Shown here: positions 7,683 to 27,818 of the stretch, piece by piece
Numbering within the stretch: the first letter of the stretch is position 1
Layout of the letters: the number at the start of each line of letters is the position of its first letter
Assembly: GCA_002787235.1 (NCBI GenBank)
Contig: PCWG01000015.1
Span: forward strand, 124,001-188,000
Direction: 5' to 3'
Origin: Nitrospinae bacterium CG11_big_fil_rev_8_21_14_0_20_45_15
GTDB taxonomy: Bacteria > Nitrospinota > Nitrospinia > Nitrospinales > VA-1
DNA length: 64,000 nt
Position numbers and translations under genes: made by a program
Notes under the pieces: model-generated
What the model saw: only the letters and a program-made list of their open reading frames with translations
The model's database searches: none
What the model was told of the DNA's origin: nothing

Positions 7683-7997
7683 TTAAGGCTCACAAGGAAA
7701 ACTATTGCGCCAGCTCTCAAATCCCCCCGCCATGCTATAGACTTCCTTAAATCCTTCAGACAATAAAAACGAGGCGGCAGATTTACTATTATTGCCATGA
7801 TAGCAATAAACAATAACAGGTATCTCCTTGTCTGCAGAGTCAATGAACTCCTTAGAATTTTCCTTATTCAAATGAATGGACTCAGGAATATGACTCGCAT
7901 CAAAAGAGTCTGCATCACGAATATCAATGATGACGACCTCTTCGGTTTCCAGTTTTTCAAAAGTTTGTCCCGCGCTGATTTCTTTCCAATTCGTCAT
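7683..7997 (-). CDS. Single-domain rhodanese (GlpE-like sulfurtransferase)
   Basis: This is a 104-residue single rhodanese domain. VVIIDIRDADSFDASHIPES is the conserved N-terminal motif, and C65 in VYCYHGNNS is the active-site cysteine that carries a persulfide. The C-terminal GFKEVYSMAGGFESWR is the family's closing motif. The loop C-YHGNNS resembles GlpE, which uses thiosulfate and small acceptors. No signal peptide is visible, so it acts in the cytoplasm. Its physiological sulfur donor is unknown. Confidence 0.92.
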   Translation of the reverse strand: MTNWKEISAGQTFEKLETEEVVIIDIRDADSFDASHIPESIHLNKENSKEFIDSADKEIPVIVYCYHGNNSKSAASFLLSEGFKEVYSMAGGFESWRNSFPCEP

Positions 7998-8190: not shown

Positions 8191-8316
8191 GTTGACTATT
8201 GAAAATGTTTTTGTTAGGTTCCAGTTGAAAACTGAGTGGACTTAAGTATCTCCTCATAGCTGTATTCATCGCGTTACAGCATCCATTTTATTTTCAGATT
8301 GATTGAAAGGTTTTGT

Positions 8317-9261
8317 ATGCTAAAGGTCTTGCTCAACGTATTTTTACTTGTGCTTTTTTCATTCCTGCTCCCCACAGAAAGTCCTGCATTCAAACAGATT
8401 GACTGGGCCTCAATCAACCCTTCCTTGAAAAGTGCAATCCCTGTAAACGACACCACTGAGTGTTTGGATTGCCACGACGACTATATTGAATCCTTTGAAA
8501 AAACAAAACATGCGAAAGCCTATCGAGCGATTTTCGGCTGGAGCACACCTGCGTCTTGCGAAGCCTGCCATGGCCCACTCAGCAATCATCTGAAAGAAAA
8601 AGACCTGGATAAAAAACTGGACTCCGTGGTCTCTTTTAAAAATATTTCCCCAGAAGCAAAAAATTCTATCTGCATGCAATGCCATGAAAAAGGCCAATCC
8701 AGAAACTGGATGGGGAGCACTCATGAATCAGCGGGTGTGTCTTGCACCAACTGTCATTATGTGATGACAAAAAGGAGTAAAAGCAAGCTTTTTATAAAAG
8801 GGGACTCAATAAAAGTTTGTTTCCAATGTCACCGTGACAAACGGGCCAAGATGGAACGCGCCTCTCATATGCCTTTGAGGGAAGGGAAAATGTCCTGCAC
8901 AGGTTGTCACAACCCGCATGGAAGTTTTGGCCCCAATTTACTCCAAAAAGCGACAGTGAATGAGACCTGCAGTGACTGCCATCAGGACAAACGCGGCCCC
9001 ATGTTGTGGGAACACGCTCCGGTAAGAGAAAATTGCTCCACCTGCCATGACCCGCATGGTTCTAATTTTCAATCCATGCTCAAGCGCAAACCCCCTTACC
9101 TGTGTCAACAATGCCATATGGATTCATTCCATCCTAGTAGCGTTTACGATGGAACACAGATCAACGCAAGGGAAGCCGAAATTGTAGGAAAGTCATGCAT
9201 CAATTGTCACAGTATGATTCACGGTTCGAACCATCCTTCTGGAGCAAGGTTTCAACGATGA
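8317..9261 (+). CDS. Decaheme c-type cytochrome, DmsE/MtrA-like
   Basis: The 314-residue protein has a hydrophobic signal peptide (about 1-25) and ten CxxCH haem-binding motifs starting at C49, C81, C119, C143, C168, C194, C218, C240, C263 and C294. Many extra histidines (for example NPHGS and DPHGS after two motifs) can act as distal ligands. Length, haem number and the repeated CHNPHGS/CHDPHGS pattern match periplasmic MtrA/DmsE/PioA decahaem cytochromes, which plug an outer-membrane barrel and pass electrons across it. I chose the ATG at 8317, which follows GAAAGG by six bases, over a TTG six codons upstream. The next gene encodes the matching barrel. Confidence 0.93.
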   Translation: MLKVLLNVFLLVLFSFLLPTESPAFKQIDWASINPSLKSAIPVNDTTECLDCHDDYIESFEKTKHAKAYRAIFGWSTPASCEACHGPLSNHLKEKDLDKKLDSVVSFKNISPEAKNSICMQCHEKGQSRNWMGSTHESAGVSCTNCHYVMTKRSKSKLFIKGDSIKVCFQCHRDKRAKMERASHMPLREGKMSCTGCHNPHGSFGPNLLQKATVNETCSDCHQDKRGPMLWEHAPVRENCSTCHDPHGSNFQSMLKRKPPYLCQQCHMDSFHPSSVYDGTQINAREAEIVGKSCINCHSMIHGSNHPSGARFQR

Positions 9262-9342
9262 GTGGACTTCACATCAATTTACAAGGATTTAAGAATGTAT
9301 CTTTCCTCAAGGAATGCCTTCGTGGTAAGGAAGGGTTTTTAA

Positions 9343-11556
9343 ATGATAGATAAAAGCTGGGTGATCAAATCAATGCTGATTTGCTTGCTGGCTCTTCCTG
9401 TGTGCGCTTATGCCGACGAGCCAACCCCTGCCCCTGACAATACAAAAAATGAAGACAGTGTGGACGGTCAAATTACCATTGGTGGAAGTGGGGTTCACCT
9501 CAACACCCGGTCTTCCAAATTTGGGGAATACAACGGACTATTAGACAGCACTGGTTTTTTTGTAGGCGATGCAGATCTTCTGATTCACAGCGACTCCAAA
9601 TATTTCAGTCTGCTGGCTGAAGATATTGGCCTTGAAAATAGAACCATCAACATGGAATTGGGAGAATATGGCGATTACAAATTCTTCGCCGAGTTGGATC
9701 AACAACCCCATTACTTGTCCACCACCAGCAAATCTTATTTTGATGGAATTGGCGGAACCGTTCTCACCAATCCCACGGGTTTTGCGACTGGAGCAAACGC
9801 CGCAGGTGTCACATTCGGCAAAATTAATGATGTTGACTTAAAGCTTGACAGTGTCAATGGCACCCTGGGTTTCGCAAGAACGTTTGGCGAAGACAAGGAA
9901 AAAGAATTCAAATTTACTTTTCATCGAAACGAACGAAACGGAATTCAATCCTTGGGTGGAACCTTTGGAACCACCGGTGGCAACACACGATCTGTCGTTA
10001 TCCCTGAACTCGTGGATCAGGTGACCAACGAAATCAGAACTTCTTTGGCCTTCAACGGTCAAGACAAACAATTTCAGCTAGATTACTTTTTCTCTTCCTA
10101 CAACAATAAAGTAAAGTCCATCACTTTTGACAGCCCTTATACACCCGTTGCAGGAACGATTGCCGCCAAGGGATTGATCTCCAGAGCACCTGACAATCAA
10201 TATCACAAACTGAGTTTGTCGAGCGGCTGGAAACTCAGCCCCACTACACGACTTTCCAGTATCGTTGAGTATGGGGTTTCAAAACAGGATACAAATCTAT
10301 TAGCATTTTCATTGGATGCGGCAGGAAGCGATCGAAGCCTGTTACCCAGACAAACCGCAGGTGCAGAAATTCAAACCGTCCACGTCAATCTCAACTTAAC
10401 AGCCAAGCCTTTTAAAAAACTGGGTGTCAATCTGAAATACCGGCATTACGAAACCATAAACGAAACCGAGCAATCTGAATTTTTATACTTCAGAAACGAT
10501 ACCAATGCCGCCGTTGGTGCCGCAACGAACAGAGCTCTCACCAATCTGCCTTACGATTACAAACAAGATCAGGCGACACTTGATTTGAATTACAGTCTCT
10601 TCAAGGGGACCCAACTCAAGCTGGGGTTTGAGAGCGAACTTTATCAGAGAGATTTCAGAGAAGTCGAAGCTACTGTTGAAAACACTGTCCAGACGCGATT
10701 GAAATCGAGTTACTTTTCGTTCGTGGACATGAGCTTTTGGGGTTCGTATGCCAATCGTGTGGCTGATTCGTATGATCCCACCCGTCCCTTCACAGCGCGG
10801 CATTCGGATGCCTGTTTGCTTGGTGCCTGTGCAGGCTCTTTTGACAGCAATCCGGACCTGAGACGAGTGGATGTCGCCAACAGACATCGAAGCAAATTTG
10901 GATCGGCCTTTACTTTTTTTCCAACAGACAAACTCATAGTGGGAATGAATTATAATTTTTTAGAAGACGACTTCGTCAACTCCACAAGAGGCGTCCAGTT
11001 TGACAAAAATCAGGATGTAACGCTGGATCTGAGCTACACCCCGACACAAACAACTTCTTATACCGCCTATTACACATTCAACCGACGACAAGCCCAACAG
11101 GACAATCGCTCATTCTCCAACGCGGCACAAGCCCAGGATACAAGCAGAGACTGGAGAGCCGACCACGATGATTTGTCCAATACAGTCGGCTTTGAAGTCA
11201 AACGCAAGGCCATGGATAAAAAACTGGATCTAACAGCGAACTATGTTTATACCAAAAGTCTGACGCACATTACCTTTGCTACAGGTTCCGCATTGGCGGC
11301 AGGGGTGGATGCCCCTGATCTATTAACCGAAAGACATCGTTTGGGTCTGACAGGAAAATACACAGTGAACCCAAACCTTACGATTGGGCTCAATTACCTG
11401 TACGAAAATTACCGTACAAAGGATTTTTCCACCATTGGAATCAGTGCCTCCTCAGGAGAAGTTGCACAGTCTATTTTATTGAGCGCGATTGATAGAAATT
11501 ATGAAGCGCAAGTTGGTATGTTATTCGCTGTGTACACGTTCAATACTCCTCAATAA
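9343..11556 (+). CDS. MtrB/PioB-type outer-membrane beta-barrel of a porin-cytochrome conduit
   Basis: The 737-residue protein has a signal peptide ending near A24 (VCAYA before DEPTP) and then a long series of alternating amphipathic strands such as KEFKFTFHRNERNG, KQFQLDYFFSSYNNK and TRLSSIVEYGVSKQ, typical of a large barrel. Repeated motifs like LDLNYSLFKGTQLKLGFE and VTLDLSYTPTQTTSYTAYY are those of the MtrB/PioB decahaem-associated family. An AAGGAAGG ribosome-binding site precedes the start. No CxxC pair is seen near the mature N-terminus, unlike some Shewanella MtrB proteins. With the preceding decahaem cytochrome it would form a two-part electron conduit through the outer membrane. 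No outer-surface MtrC-like cytochrome gene is adjacent. Confidence 0.9.
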   Translation: MIDKSWVIKSMLICLLALPVCAYADEPTPAPDNTKNEDSVDGQITIGGSGVHLNTRSSKFGEYNGLLDSTGFFVGDADLLIHSDSKYFSLLAEDIGLENRTINMELGEYGDYKFFAELDQQPHYLSTTSKSYFDGIGGTVLTNPTGFATGANAAGVTFGKINDVDLKLDSVNGTLGFARTFGEDKEKEFKFTFHRNERNGIQSLGGTFGTTGGNTRSVVIPELVDQVTNEIRTSLAFNGQDKQFQLDYFFSSYNNKVKSITFDSPYTPVAGTIAAKGLISRAPDNQYHKLSLSSGWKLSPTTRLSSIVEYGVSKQDTNLLAFSLDAAGSDRSLLPRQTAGAEIQTVHVNLNLTAKPFKKLGVNLKYRHYETINETEQSEFLYFRNDTNAAVGAATNRALTNLPYDYKQDQATLDLNYSLFKGTQLKLGFESELYQRDFREVEATVENTVQTRLKSSYFSFVDMSFWGSYANRVADSYDPTRPFTARHSDACLLGACAGSFDSNPDLRRVDVANRHRSKFGSAFTFFPTDKLIVGMNYNFLEDDFVNSTRGVQFDKNQDVTLDLSYTPTQTTSYTAYYTFNRRQAQQDNRSFSNAAQAQDTSRDWRADHDDLSNTVGFEVKRKAMDKKLDLTANYVYTKSLTHITFATGSALAAGVDAPDLLTERHRLGLTGKYTVNPNLTIGLNYLYENYRTKDFSTIGISASSGEVAQSILLSAIDRNYEAQVGMLFAVYTFNTPQ

Positions 11557-23349: not shown

Positions 23350-23384
23350 CACCCTAAATTTAAATCCTGGCGAAGGGAATGTTC

Positions 23385-23876
23385 ATGGCCGATACAGACC
23401 AAGTAGTAGAGGAAGAAATTGATTTAGCCCCAACGCAGAAGATTCTTGATGCTTTGCCTGAAAAAAGCCGCCGGTACTTGATACCTGCGTTGCAAAAAAT
23501 TCAGGGAGTCTATCGCTATCTTCCAGAACCTGCTATGGAGCTAGTGATGATGGATATTGGAATTTCAAAGGCTCAGTTATACGGAGTCATATCATTTTTC
23601 CCCAAATTCCTCATAGAAGAACCCGGTAAGTACATAATCAACTTGTGCTACGGAACCGCATGCTTTGTGAAAGGTGCTGAAATAATCGTCAATAAAATTC
23701 ACGAATGTTATAAAATAAAACCGGGGCAGACCGATGCCAGCAAGCTGTTCACTCTGCAGACGGCATCCTGTCTGGGTAACTGTGGCGCGGCACCTATGGC
23801 AATCATTGGCGAGGACACGCATGGCACCATTGATCCTGAAAAATCACTGGAATTACTTGCGAGTTACAAACTATAA
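23385..23876 (+). CDS. nuoE: NADH-quinone oxidoreductase subunit E (2Fe-2S, thioredoxin-like)
   Basis: The 163-residue protein has a helical N-terminal part (ILDALPEKSRRYLIPALQKIQ) and a thioredoxin-like [2Fe-2S] domain with ligands C88, C93 (CYGTAC) and C129, C133 (CLGNC), the N1a cluster of complex I. I start at the ATG at 23385, seven bases after GAAGGGA; an ATG two codons upstream abuts that sequence. NuoE normally pairs with NuoF, the flavin and NADH-binding subunit, but no nuoF is found here. nuoG follows after 121 bases. Confidence 0.9.
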   Translation: MADTDQVVEEEIDLAPTQKILDALPEKSRRYLIPALQKIQGVYRYLPEPAMELVMMDIGISKAQLYGVISFFPKFLIEEPGKYIINLCYGTACFVKGAEIIVNKIHECYKIKPGQTDASKLFTLQTASCLGNCGAAPMAIIGEDTHGTIDPEKSLELLASYKL

Positions 23877-23964
23877 AATGTTCTGTCTCCAGTGAGACTG
23901 TTGCAAACATATATTATTGCCTCTAATTAATTGATTGAATCTCCCTTATAAATTACAAAAGCAA

Positions 23965-23978
23965 AGGGGAATTCCCCT
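23965..23978. promoter_or_regulatory. Perfect 14-bp palindrome between nuoE and nuoG
   Basis: AGGGGAATTCCCCT reads the same on both strands and sits 20 bases before the nuoG start. It could bind a dimeric protein or form a small RNA hairpin that affects nuoG translation. I do not recognise the operator. Confidence 0.3.
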
Positions 23979-23997
23979 GGGAAAGCGATTTTTATAA

Positions 23998-26577
23998 ATG
24001 AGCGTTACAGTTAGAGAAACCATAAACTTTACTATCGACGGCAAGCCTGCCACCGCACCCGAAGGAACCATCATCCTGGAAGTGGCTCAAAAATACGGCT
24101 TCGAAGTCACCAATCTTTGTTACAACAAGAAGCTCAAACCTTTTGCCGCTTGCAGAACATGCATGGTAGAAGTCCGGCACAATGGCAAAAAAGAGTTGGT
24201 CTACTCCTGTACCCATCCTGTTGCAGAAGGCATGGAAGTCATCATTCATACCGAGGAGACCGACAGATACAACAGTGCGAACATTGAAATGTTACTGGTA
24301 GAACACCCTCTTGACTGTCCAATATGCGATAAATCAGGTGTCTGCCCTCTTCAAGACAACACCGAATTACTGGAACTGCAAAAACCCCGTTTTGAGATTC
24401 AGCGCAGAAACGAACCCAGCATAAAAACCAATCCATTGATTGAGTTTTATCTGAATCGTTGCATTGTATGCGGACTCTGCGTGCGTGCCTGCGACGAGAT
24501 TCAAGGTGTTCAAGCCCTGGATTTTCACCAAAGAGGTATGAAAGCCTCTATTGGAACGGCCAACGACGAACCATTGGATTGTGAGTTCTGCGGTCAATGC
24601 ATCACCGTGTGCCCCACTGGCGCGCTCATGGATATGTCTTCCGACGCACGTGGCCTTGCCGCTCTGTTTAAGAATACCAACACCACCTGCAGTTACTGTT
24701 CGTGGGGTTGCACCGTTCAGTTGGAAACCAAAAAGAATAAACTCGTTCGAATCACCGCCGATGAAACACCAGGTGTCGGCATCAACGAAGGCAACCTCTG
24801 CGCCAAGGGTCGTTTTGGACATGGCATCGTCCATAATGATGAGCGAATTCAAAGCCCGCTCATCAATCAGGGTGGAACCTTTCAGGAAATCGGCTGGGAC
24901 GAGGCGATCGAAATGATTGCGGAAAGAGCAAAAACAACGATCAATCGAAATGGAGCAGAAAGCCTTGCAGGCCTCGCTTCTGAAAAATTGACAAACGAAG
25001 AGAATTATCTTTTCCAAAAATTATTCAGAAACAACTACGGTTCAAATCAAATCAATAATCTGCAGAATCTACAAGCACCTTACGTCAATGACTTCATGCT
25101 CAACTGTTTTGAAAACGGCATTGAGTCAAAGCCAGTAACCGAACTGGATCAGGCCGATGTCGTATTGATCTTCAACTCCGATCTGCCATCAGAATATCCC
25201 GTAGGTGGCAACTCCATACGTAAGGGAGCTATTTTCACCGGAACTCGCGTCATTTTTGCGAATCCCAGGAACATGCGATTCGATCACGAAAGCAGGATCG
25301 ACATTCGCCTGATTTATAATCAAGATGCTGACTTCATGTTGGCCAATAGACTGTGCAGGATCTTGATCGACGAAAACCTGGTCGATACCGCCAAGGTTCA
25401 GGAACAAATTCCAAATTTCAACGACCTCGTTGCTTCTCTGGCACCCTACACCGCCGATGCCACAAAAAAAGCAACGGGTCTTACCAACGAACAGCTCAAA
25501 CGCACCGCCACACAATTGGCGGAAAAAGCCGATCGTGCTCTCATTATTGGCAATGACGTGCTAAATACAGGCAAAGGAAAAGAAACTCTCAATGCCTTGT
25601 TGAACCTCGCGATACTGCTCAATGCCGGTGGAGAGGGAAGCGTCAGCATTTACCCTCCACGCGAACACTGTAATTCACAAGGTGTCAATGATATGGGGGC
25701 AACTCCGCAATATCTGCCCGGCTATCGTCCTGTCAATGATGCGTTTGAACATGAAAATTTAGCAGATGAGCTTTTTGAAAATTGCGCCAATGGAAAAATT
25801 AAATTTTTGCACATTGCCGGGGAAGATCCAATGACCTCTTACAAAAGTCGATCAATTGTCGAGCAGGCACTGGATACCGTCCCTTTTCTTGTCGTTCAGG
25901 ACATTTATATGAGCGAAACGGCAAGAAAGGCCAACCTCATCTTGCCGACCGCAACTTTTGCTGAGAAAGAAGGAACCGTTACCAACATGACCCGTCATGT
26001 TCAAAAGGTAGTTCCTGCTATTCCTGTTCAGGGAAAAGCCAAGTCTGACCTGGAAATATTCCATAATCTCGCAGATGCTCTTGGTTCACCATTCAAATCT
26101 AAATCTTCTTCCGATGTTCTGGAAGAAATTCGTCAAACCATTCCCGCTTACAAAGATGTCGATCCCGCTCGACATGAGCAATGGAAGCCCTCTGGAGTAA
26201 CAGCTAAACCAGCCTTCCAAATCTGTGCATTCGAAGAATTGAAAGCCTCCAAACGAGATTTCTCGATGAAACTTTTGACCAATAATCACATGTTTCATAT
26301 TGGAAGCTACACACATTTTTCAAAAGCTCTAACAGATATTGGGCCGGATTGTTTCGCGGAAATCAATCCCAAGGATGCAAAAAAATCTGAATTGGTGAAT
26401 GGTGATACCTTGCTTGTTGAATCCTCTCAAGCCAATTTAAAAGTGCAAATGAAAATCAATCCCGCTGTACCCGCTGGGATGGTTTACATTCCAAAAAACT
26501 GGCCGGAAGTTCCAGTCAATGCCCTCAGAAACGGCGAAGATGGAACCGTCCACGTTAAAATATCCAAATCCGAATAA
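23998..26577 (+). CDS. nuoG: NADH-quinone oxidoreductase subunit G, formate-dehydrogenase-like form
   Basis: The 859-residue protein carries the full iron-sulfur chain. [2Fe-2S] ligands are C41, C52, C55 and C71; the His-Cys [4Fe-4S] site is H103, C107, C110 and C116. Two ferredoxin-type clusters use C155/158/161/165 and C195/198/201/205, and a [4Fe-4S] at the molybdopterin fold uses C231, C234, C238 and C268. The large domain after residue 225 resembles the formate dehydrogenase alpha subunit (ASEKLTNEENYLFQKLFR). However, the catalytic Sec/Cys-His is replaced by L358-Q359 in NNLQNLQAP, so formate oxidation is not expected. It lies between nuoE and nuoD. Confidence 0.9.
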   Translation: MSVTVRETINFTIDGKPATAPEGTIILEVAQKYGFEVTNLCYNKKLKPFAACRTCMVEVRHNGKKELVYSCTHPVAEGMEVIIHTEETDRYNSANIEMLLVEHPLDCPICDKSGVCPLQDNTELLELQKPRFEIQRRNEPSIKTNPLIEFYLNRCIVCGLCVRACDEIQGVQALDFHQRGMKASIGTANDEPLDCEFCGQCITVCPTGALMDMSSDARGLAALFKNTNTTCSYCSWGCTVQLETKKNKLVRITADETPGVGINEGNLCAKGRFGHGIVHNDERIQSPLINQGGTFQEIGWDEAIEMIAERAKTTINRNGAESLAGLASEKLTNEENYLFQKLFRNNYGSNQINNLQNLQAPYVNDFMLNCFENGIESKPVTELDQADVVLIFNSDLPSEYPVGGNSIRKGAIFTGTRVIFANPRNMRFDHESRIDIRLIYNQDADFMLANRLCRILIDENLVDTAKVQEQIPNFNDLVASLAPYTADATKKATGLTNEQLKRTATQLAEKADRALIIGNDVLNTGKGKETLNALLNLAILLNAGGEGSVSIYPPREHCNSQGVNDMGATPQYLPGYRPVNDAFEHENLADELFENCANGKIKFLHIAGEDPMTSYKSRSIVEQALDTVPFLVVQDIYMSETARKANLILPTATFAEKEGTVTNMTRHVQKVVPAIPVQGKAKSDLEIFHNLADALGSPFKSKSSSDVLEEIRQTIPAYKDVDPARHEQWKPSGVTAKPAFQICAFEELKASKRDFSMKLLTNNHMFHIGSYTHFSKALTDIGPDCFAEINPKDAKKSELVNGDTLLVESSQANLKVQMKINPAVPAGMVYIPKNWPEVPVNALRNGEDGTVHVKISKSE

Positions 26578-26627
26578 ATCAGAAAAAAATCACGTATCGC
26601 ACACCATAGTCAAAGGCGTTTGAAAAC

Positions 26628-27818
26628 ATGACCGATCTGAAAGAAAATTTACATACGGAGCACATGCTCCTCAACATGGGCCCGTCGCATCCTGCAACGC
26701 ATGGTACCGTCAAATTCTTACTCACTCTGGACGGCGAAAGCGTCGTAAATATGGATATAGACATCGGCTATCTCCATCGCGGCTTCGAAAAAATGTGTGA
26801 AAGCGTGACCTGGACCAATGTTTTCCCTTATACCGACCGCCTCAATTACTGCTCGGCTATAATGAACAACATTGGCTACGCATTGGCCGTCGAAAAACTT
26901 TGTGACATTGAAGTCAGTGACCGTTGCAAATACATACGTGTTGTCACTAACGAATTGTCCCGTATTTCAGATCACTACACCAATATTGCGGCGGCCGCTC
27001 TCGAACTAGGAGCCTTAACTGCCTTCATTTATTTTGTTGAGGCCAGGGAAATTGTATGGGATCTGCTCGAAAAAGTTTGTGGTGCTCGCTTGACCTCCAA
27101 CTACATCCGTATCGGTGGTCTCATGTGCGATTTGCCTCCAGGTTTTGACGAAGACCTGAAAGCCGCTTACCCGAAACTCGATGCTCTTTTCGATGACGTG
27201 GACAAACTGCTAACCAAAAACAGAATTTTTCTTGACCGCATGCGCGATACGGGTGGCATCTCTGCAGAACGTGCGATCAACTGGGGATTCACAGGGCCTT
27301 GCCTACGAGCCTGTGGTGTCGATTACGACGTCCGTAAAACACACCCTTATCTGGTCTACGATCGAATCGATTTTGACATCCCAATCGGAACCGTCGGTGA
27401 CAACTTTGATCGTTATTTGGTGCGCATGGAAGAAATCAAGCAGAGCATGAAAATTATCAAACAAGCTATGAAAGATATGCCCGAAGGCCCCATCAATGTG
27501 AACAATCCATACATGAGAATTCCATCAAAGCAGGATGTTTACTCTAAAATGGAGGAAATGATCGCTCACTTCAAAATGGTGATAGATGGACTGAAGCCAC
27601 CTGTTGGGGAAGTTTACTTTCCTACGGAGGCCGCCAATGGAGAATTGGGATTTTATCTGGTAAGCGATGGAACCGGAAAACCCTACAAATGCAGAGTACG
27701 TCCACCCAGCTTCACCATGACAGCGGCTATGTCTGAAATATGCAAGGGTGGGATGCTGGCAGACATCATACCAACGTTCGACATGATCAATATGATCGGT
27801 GGTGAATGCGACCGTTAA
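26628..27818 (+). CDS. nuoD: NADH-quinone oxidoreductase subunit D
   Basis: The 396-residue protein is the 49-kDa subunit of complex I, at the quinone site where the peripheral arm meets the membrane arm. Family motifs are MGPSHPATHGTVKF, DIDIGYLHRGFEKM, PYTDRLNYCSAI, GGLMCDLPPGF and the C-terminal IIPTFDMINMIGGECDR. Length is normal for a separate NuoD. It follows nuoG by 50 bases. nuoA, B, C, F and H-N are not in the window, so the complex is encoded in at least two places. Confidence 0.95.
   Translation: MTDLKENLHTEHMLLNMGPSHPATHGTVKFLLTLDGESVVNMDIDIGYLHRGFEKMCESVTWTNVFPYTDRLNYCSAIMNNIGYALAVEKLCDIEVSDRCKYIRVVTNELSRISDHYTNIAAAALELGALTAFIYFVEAREIVWDLLEKVCGARLTSNYIRIGGLMCDLPPGFDEDLKAAYPKLDALFDDVDKLLTKNRIFLDRMRDTGGISAERAINWGFTGPCLRACGVDYDVRKTHPYLVYDRIDFDIPIGTVGDNFDRYLVRMEEIKQSMKIIKQAMKDMPEGPINVNNPYMRIPSKQDVYSKMEEMIAHFKMVIDGLKPPVGEVYFPTEAANGELGFYLVSDGTGKPYKCRVRPPSFTMTAAMSEICKGGMLADIIPTFDMINMIGGECDR

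Follow-up and report, generated by a model that had tools for sequence, protein, structure and literature searches.

A putative MtrAB-type outer-membrane electron conduit in a probable nitrite oxidiser of the Nitrospinales

Among the described electron conduits that lack MtrC, MtoAB of the chemolithoautotroph Sideroxydans lithotrophicus ES-1 and of Gallionellaceae combines a decaheme cytochrome with an MtrB-family outer-membrane barrel; expression of an MtrC-free MtoAB on magnetite has been described (PMC12016527). The Mto gene cluster also has the monoheme cytochrome MtoD and the inner-membrane tetraheme cytochrome CymA/ImoA. PioAB(C) of Rhodopseudomonas palustris TIE-1 is likewise a two-part conduit with no surface cytochrome, and in its PioA a long N-terminal stretch, residues 1-270, is free of heme (PMC10654088). 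Under laboratory conditions MtrCAB has been made to run as an oxidising conduit, MtoA and PioA form no function-specific clade, and the direction of electron flow is not readable from sequence (PMC8805035). Genes of this type have already been published from the Nitrospinota lineage, where their function is predicted: four Nitrospinota MAGs have been reported to carry MtoA (PMC11442690), and the tunnel MAGs OFTM166, OFTM368 and OFTM7 of the Nitrospinaceae to carry MtoAB (PMC11995701).

We analyzed a 64-kb stretch of Nitrospinales DNA, hereafter the window, which carries a gene pair of this kind (Table 1). A preliminary description of the window had reported ten CxxCH motifs in an exported 314-residue protein directly before a 737-residue MtrB/PioB-type barrel, and this was confirmed by the motif count, the 81-nt gap and the family cut-offs passed. 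Like MtoAB, the pair consists of a decaheme cytochrome and an MtrB-family barrel with no MtrC, in a chemolithoautotrophic host; however, neither MtoD nor CymA/ImoA has a counterpart adjoining the window pair. With PioAB(C) it shares the two-part layout and the lack of a surface cytochrome, but the N-terminal extension of PioA is absent, the 314 residues of the decaheme protein being its total length and its first heme motif lying at residue 49. Because MtoA and MtoAB have been published from Nitrospinota MAGs, the window pair is not the first of its kind in the lineage. The MtoAB of OFTM166, OFTM368 and OFTM7, which is the same pair in the same lineage by its authors' annotation, is probably the same thing.

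Table 1 Features of the conduit gene pair (positions in the 64-kb window)
Feature	Position	Strand	Description and basis
Decaheme c-type cytochrome, MtrA/MtoA/PioA-type	8317..9261	+	314 aa, ATG start; TIGR03508, 6r2q_A, motif and His count
Spacer between decaheme and barrel genes	9262..9342	+	81 nt; Shine-Dalgarno-like AGGAAGGG precedes barrel start
MtrB/PioB-family outer-membrane barrel	9343..11556	+	737 aa; PF11854, TIGR03509, 6r2q_B, predicted model

Reading of the ORFs showed both frames to be open and intact, and an alternative in-frame start, TTG at 8299, lies upstream of the decaheme ATG. The decaheme protein begins with what reads as a signal peptide and carries its ten CxxCH motifs at residues 49, 81, 119, 143, 168, 194, 218, 240, 263 and 294, a number far beyond chance. 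Exactly ten histidines lie outside these motifs. Each of the ten is kept in 16 or more of the 22 relatives aligned, and nine align with histidines of S. baltica MtrA, the tenth being offset by one residue. Ten motifs accompanied by ten conserved extra histidines would suit ten bis-histidine hemes. In an NCBIfam profile search, the protein passed TIGR03508 (265 bits, cut-off 192), whose name, "DmsE family decaheme", is a family-level label and no evidence of DmsE function. Its best solved relative by sequence was chain 6r2q_A of the MtrCAB complex (E 1.5e-65), and it was 44% identical to the Shewanella protein over 262 aligned positions. The structural model, built without hemes, was poor (pLDDT 58.9), as expected for a protein modelled without its heme.

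The barrel protein also has an apparent signal peptide, read from its sequence as ...PVCAYA/DEP, and it passed both Pfam MtrB_PioB (PF11854; 355 bits, cut-off 23) and TIGR03509 (318 bits, cut-off 240). Chain 6r2q_B of the MtrCAB complex was its best solved relative by sequence (E 1.4e-32). The predicted model (pLDDT 80.5) has 26 strands, counted from the listed elements, and a Foldseek search with it placed 6r2q_B first (E 2.1e-41), 30 orders of magnitude ahead of the next match, the Shewanella MtrB superposing at TM 0.80/0.90. The preliminary description had also noted that no CxxC lies near the mature start of the barrel, and the cysteines bear this out, since they occur only at positions 14 and 21, within the signal peptide, and at 491 and 496. 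Between strands 17 and 18 the model has a long loop of low confidence, which contains Cys491 and Cys496 (CLLGAC, window 10813-10830); the two could form a disulfide there, perhaps on the outer face.

Taken together, the families, the solved MtrAB complex, the predicted barrel fold and the conserved adjacency of the two genes support an MtrAB/MtoAB/PioAB-like outer-membrane electron conduit, an assignment that we hold to be highly probable. The same evidence upholds the earlier classification as a two-part, PioAB-like porin-cytochrome conduit. For this conduit we infer heme loading, outer-membrane assembly, direction, donor and partner cytochromes.

We next compared the pair with its relatives. 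In all ten Nitrospinota relatives fetched, the barrel gene directly follows the decaheme gene, and none of these ten has an MtrC-sized multiheme gene near the pair. Across 88 distinct loci from many phyla, a barrel adjoins the decaheme in 77 and an MtrC-sized neighbour (seven or more hemes, 450 aa or longer, no more than 9 kb away) is present in 11, both counts being lower bounds as many contigs are short. Within this set, an N-terminal CxxC beyond the signal peptide was found only in the barrels of L167 and L133, both of which are MtrC-bearing. The absence of both MtrC and a barrel CxxC is the usual state of the wider family; the preliminary description was thus correct in reporting this absence, whereas the emphasis that it placed on it did not hold, since the absence is ordinary.

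The decaheme and barrel genes are probably read as one transcript, because they lie on the same strand with a short gap. A terminator-like match in the spacer (9317-9334) was no better than shuffled sequences give. No other CxxCH-containing ORF of at least 90 aa occurs across the 64-kb window, which agrees with the earlier statement that neither MtrC nor a quinol dehydrogenase adjoins the pair. The gene after the barrel, on the opposite strand, encodes a 2-thiouracil desulfurase/DUF1722 protein, and at this locus no HiPIP gene was noted adjoining the barrel. When synteny around the DUF1722 gene was compared in six relatives, no empty site was found and the position of the DUF1722 gene was not conserved. 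A single-domain rhodanese gene lies at window 7683-7997 on the - strand, divergent from the conduit genes.

The genome containing the window (3.37 Mb) encodes one decaheme of the MtrA kind and one MtrB-family barrel. Because the assembly is 97.5% complete and comprises 45 contigs, absences in this genome are not absolute. A genome-wide search for mtrC- and cymA-like genes had been proposed at the outset, and it returned neither an MtrC-family match above cut-off nor a CymA-type protein. The best match to the MtrC/MtrF domain (PF22113) in the whole genome reached 25.3 bits against a cut-off of 30, and none adjoined the pair. The search with PF03264 (NapC/NirT) gave no CymA-type quinol dehydrogenase; its sole match (24.9 bits, cut-off 24.1) was rejected as CymA, because it corresponds to the N-terminal part of an octaheme protein whose gene lies next to Rieske/cytochrome b-like genes. 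In the genome-wide CxxCH pattern search, the multiheme genes inspected were those among the first matches listed. A cluster of ExtM-like exported cytochromes with 10 and 11 hemes (818 and 782 aa; C17:148-155 kb) is encoded near a SorA-like sulfite dehydrogenase gene (G000:C17:148396-157551; L073:4397-13551 region). We rejected these cytochromes as a concealed partner on the cell surface: the one with 11 hemes is present in 56 of the 77 Nitrospinota genomes, most of them conduit-free, and is therefore not a dedicated partner. Rieske and cytochrome b-like genes accompany an octaheme protein matching PF13447 at G000:C37:406736-409732 (L072:8737-11733).

The name of TIGR03508 raises the question of a DmsEF-like conduit serving an extracellular DMSO or iodate reductase, as in DmsEF(AB), since the decaheme passed this model. 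However, no DmsA-like molybdoenzyme adjoins the pair or occurs elsewhere in the genome, where the PF00384 loci are three in number: two NuoG-like large subunits of complex-I clusters and one NxrA-like protein. DmsEFAB is therefore unsupported, and this reading, which we consider extremely improbable, is already largely refuted. The two complex-I clusters are separate (window 23379-27818; G000:C18:48000-60000, L175), each with its own NuoG-like subunit. The NxrA-like protein (1151 aa) belongs to the type II DMSO-reductase family and is followed by an NxrB-like protein, the pair being NXR-like in size, order and family. Given this NxrAB-like pair, the window organism is probably a nitrite oxidiser.

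Of the two directions in which the conduit could run, we lean towards inward use, and we regard an MtoAB/PioAB-like conduit that oxidises minerals or Fe(II) as reasonably probable. The decaheme would act as a ten-heme wire within the 26-strand barrel, and this wire would connect periplasm and cell surface without a dedicated cytochrome on the outer face. The donor would lie outside the cell (for example dissolved Fe(II), a solid Fe(II) mineral, or another cell or surface), and its electrons would pass through the conduit to the periplasmic cytochrome c pool, which would already serve as the electron carrier from nitrite to the terminal oxidase. Because this pool already carries nitrite electrons to the oxidase, a CymA-type quinol dehydrogenase would be unneeded. 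We prefer the inward direction because the genome has neither a surface cytochrome nor a CymA-type protein, because the nearest MtrC-free functional analogues, MtoAB and PioAB, work inward (PMC12016527, PMC8805035), and because nitrite oxidisers of this class already run from donor to cytochrome c to oxidase, nitrite electrons in the Nitrospinia passing via cytochrome c straight to the oxidase (PMC10839748). Among the marine nitrite oxidisers known so far, the Nitrospinota are the most abundant (PMC10839748), and if some of them move electrons over the outer membrane, the marine nitrogen cycle would be tied to iron or mineral redox cycling. A broader proposal, tentative and somewhat short of an even chance, is that a Nitrospinales-specific MtrAB-type branch may allow marine nitrite oxidisers to use solid or cell-bound donors via the cytochrome c pool of nitrite oxidation, with neither a surface cytochrome nor a quinol dehydrogenase. 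Such a branch would give the lineage a second lithotrophic source of electrons.

The conduit could instead run outward. The MtrAB wire would then receive electrons from a quinol oxidase, of the bc type or another, and under oxygen limitation the cell would use it to discharge electrons from stored carbon, sulfide or hydrogen onto other cells or onto Fe(III)/Mn(IV) minerals. Of the solved structures, the nearest is that of the outward MtrCAB complex, and for Nitrosomonas communis, an ammonia oxidiser, gene-linked respiration on an anode has been put forward (PMC10415592). A further observation comes from genus g14: in L050, L053 and L054, an 11-heme protein of about 300 aa with a NapC-like N-terminus is encoded upstream of the conduit, and it adjoins genes that, on inspection of their sequences, resemble Rieske, cytochrome b and pentaheme subunits. 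Within g14, three of three genomes with the conduit encode this protein, as against none of five without the conduit. Two g15 genomes have a homologue of it (54% identity; loci L196 and L197) and no conduit. In g14 at least, this arrangement points to a connection with the quinone pool, something that an outward route would need as well and that counts against inward use. Moreover, an outward conduit need not use CymA, as the Rieske/cytochrome b-like clusters with multiheme subunits that the window genome contains could oxidise quinol. On the other hand, the window genome is without an MtrC-family protein above cut-off and without a CymA-type protein, and the g14 11-heme protein is missing from it. 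We consider outward use rather unlikely.

The trees of both proteins were then compared. In the decaheme tree, the Nitrospinales sequences formed one cluster, into which a single long-branch row from the Acidobacteria also fell, and a 100/96 branch divided the tree. The Nitrospinales side of this branch holds no MtrC-bearing rows, and its far side contains the MtrA of Shewanella and Photobacterium, the MtoA-like protein of Gallionellales (L143) and Ca. Manganitrophus. The barrel tree likewise recovered the Nitrospinales as one group (99), so that the two trees agree on the Nitrospinales clade. The phylogeny against MtrA that had been suggested earlier, calculated on a tree without PioA, DmsE and Sideroxydans MtoA sequences, thus gave the decaheme its own Nitrospinales clade, and grouping with a non-conduit family was not seen in this tree. 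Since the clade stands apart from both Shewanella MtrA and the Gallionellales MtoA-like protein, phylogeny cannot settle the direction. Unlike Shewanella MtrCAB, then, the window system has no MtrC-family match above cut-off, lacks the N-terminal CxxC of the barrel and belongs to a distant clade. Among plasmid records, the sole full-length relative was the canonical mtrCAB of Photobacterium, which served as a reference.

The same trees bear on Mn(II) oxidation, the role proposed for the porin-cytochrome complexes of Ca. Manganitrophus. Manganitrophaceae have a decaheme and a 746-aa barrel of the same families as the window pair (L117, L145). However, their sequences lie in another, well-separated part of both trees, and the literature describes PCC_1, the preferred candidate for Mn oxidation, as a complex of the dodecaheme type (PMC9040806). 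We judge this role to be very improbable for the window pair.

The decaheme was found in 12 of the 77 Nitrospinota genomes, comprising 2 of 46 in the family of the window, 8 of 18 elsewhere in the order and 2 of 13 beyond it. It was absent from both same-genus genomes searched, one of which is a single 3.3-Mb contig. Such rarity within the family, including the lack of a conduit in both same-genus genomes, could point to a remnant or an unexpressed acquisition with no current role, but both frames are intact, the ten heme motifs and ten other histidines are retained, and identity to same-order relatives is 52-61%. The local GC content (0.41-0.46) also falls inside the range of the surroundings (0.37-0.49). 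A functionless remnant or acquisition therefore seems highly doubtful. Beyond what has been published, the present analysis adds a clade specific to the lineage in the trees of both proteins, a patchy distribution, the lack of partners of the MtrC family, of the CymA type and of DmsA, and the observation that absence of MtrC and of the barrel CxxC is the norm in the wider family. The MSP enrichment culture carries the gene pair as well, in its named record (L076 = G039), which opens the conduit question to direct test.

Other genes recur near the conduit among the relatives. A histidine kinase gene lies upstream in four of them (L051, L055, L056 and L057), the kinases being 36-59% identical to one another, and Pfam recognised HisKA/HATPase in both that were scanned (L051 and L057); no such gene lies beside the window's copy of the conduit. 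Two relatives encode a triheme cytochrome near the conduit, and its homologue in the window genome, located elsewhere (C2:71692-72111), is a candidate shuttle. Finally, two genes of the window genome, L176:1411-2616 (G000:C9) and L177:1408-2556 (G000:C37), encode proteins of 401 and 382 aa in which FARK...CxxCH at the N-terminus is followed by a barrel-like remainder. These proteins match no Pfam family, and their layout, which recalls that of Cyc2, suggests a possible second path over the outer membrane.
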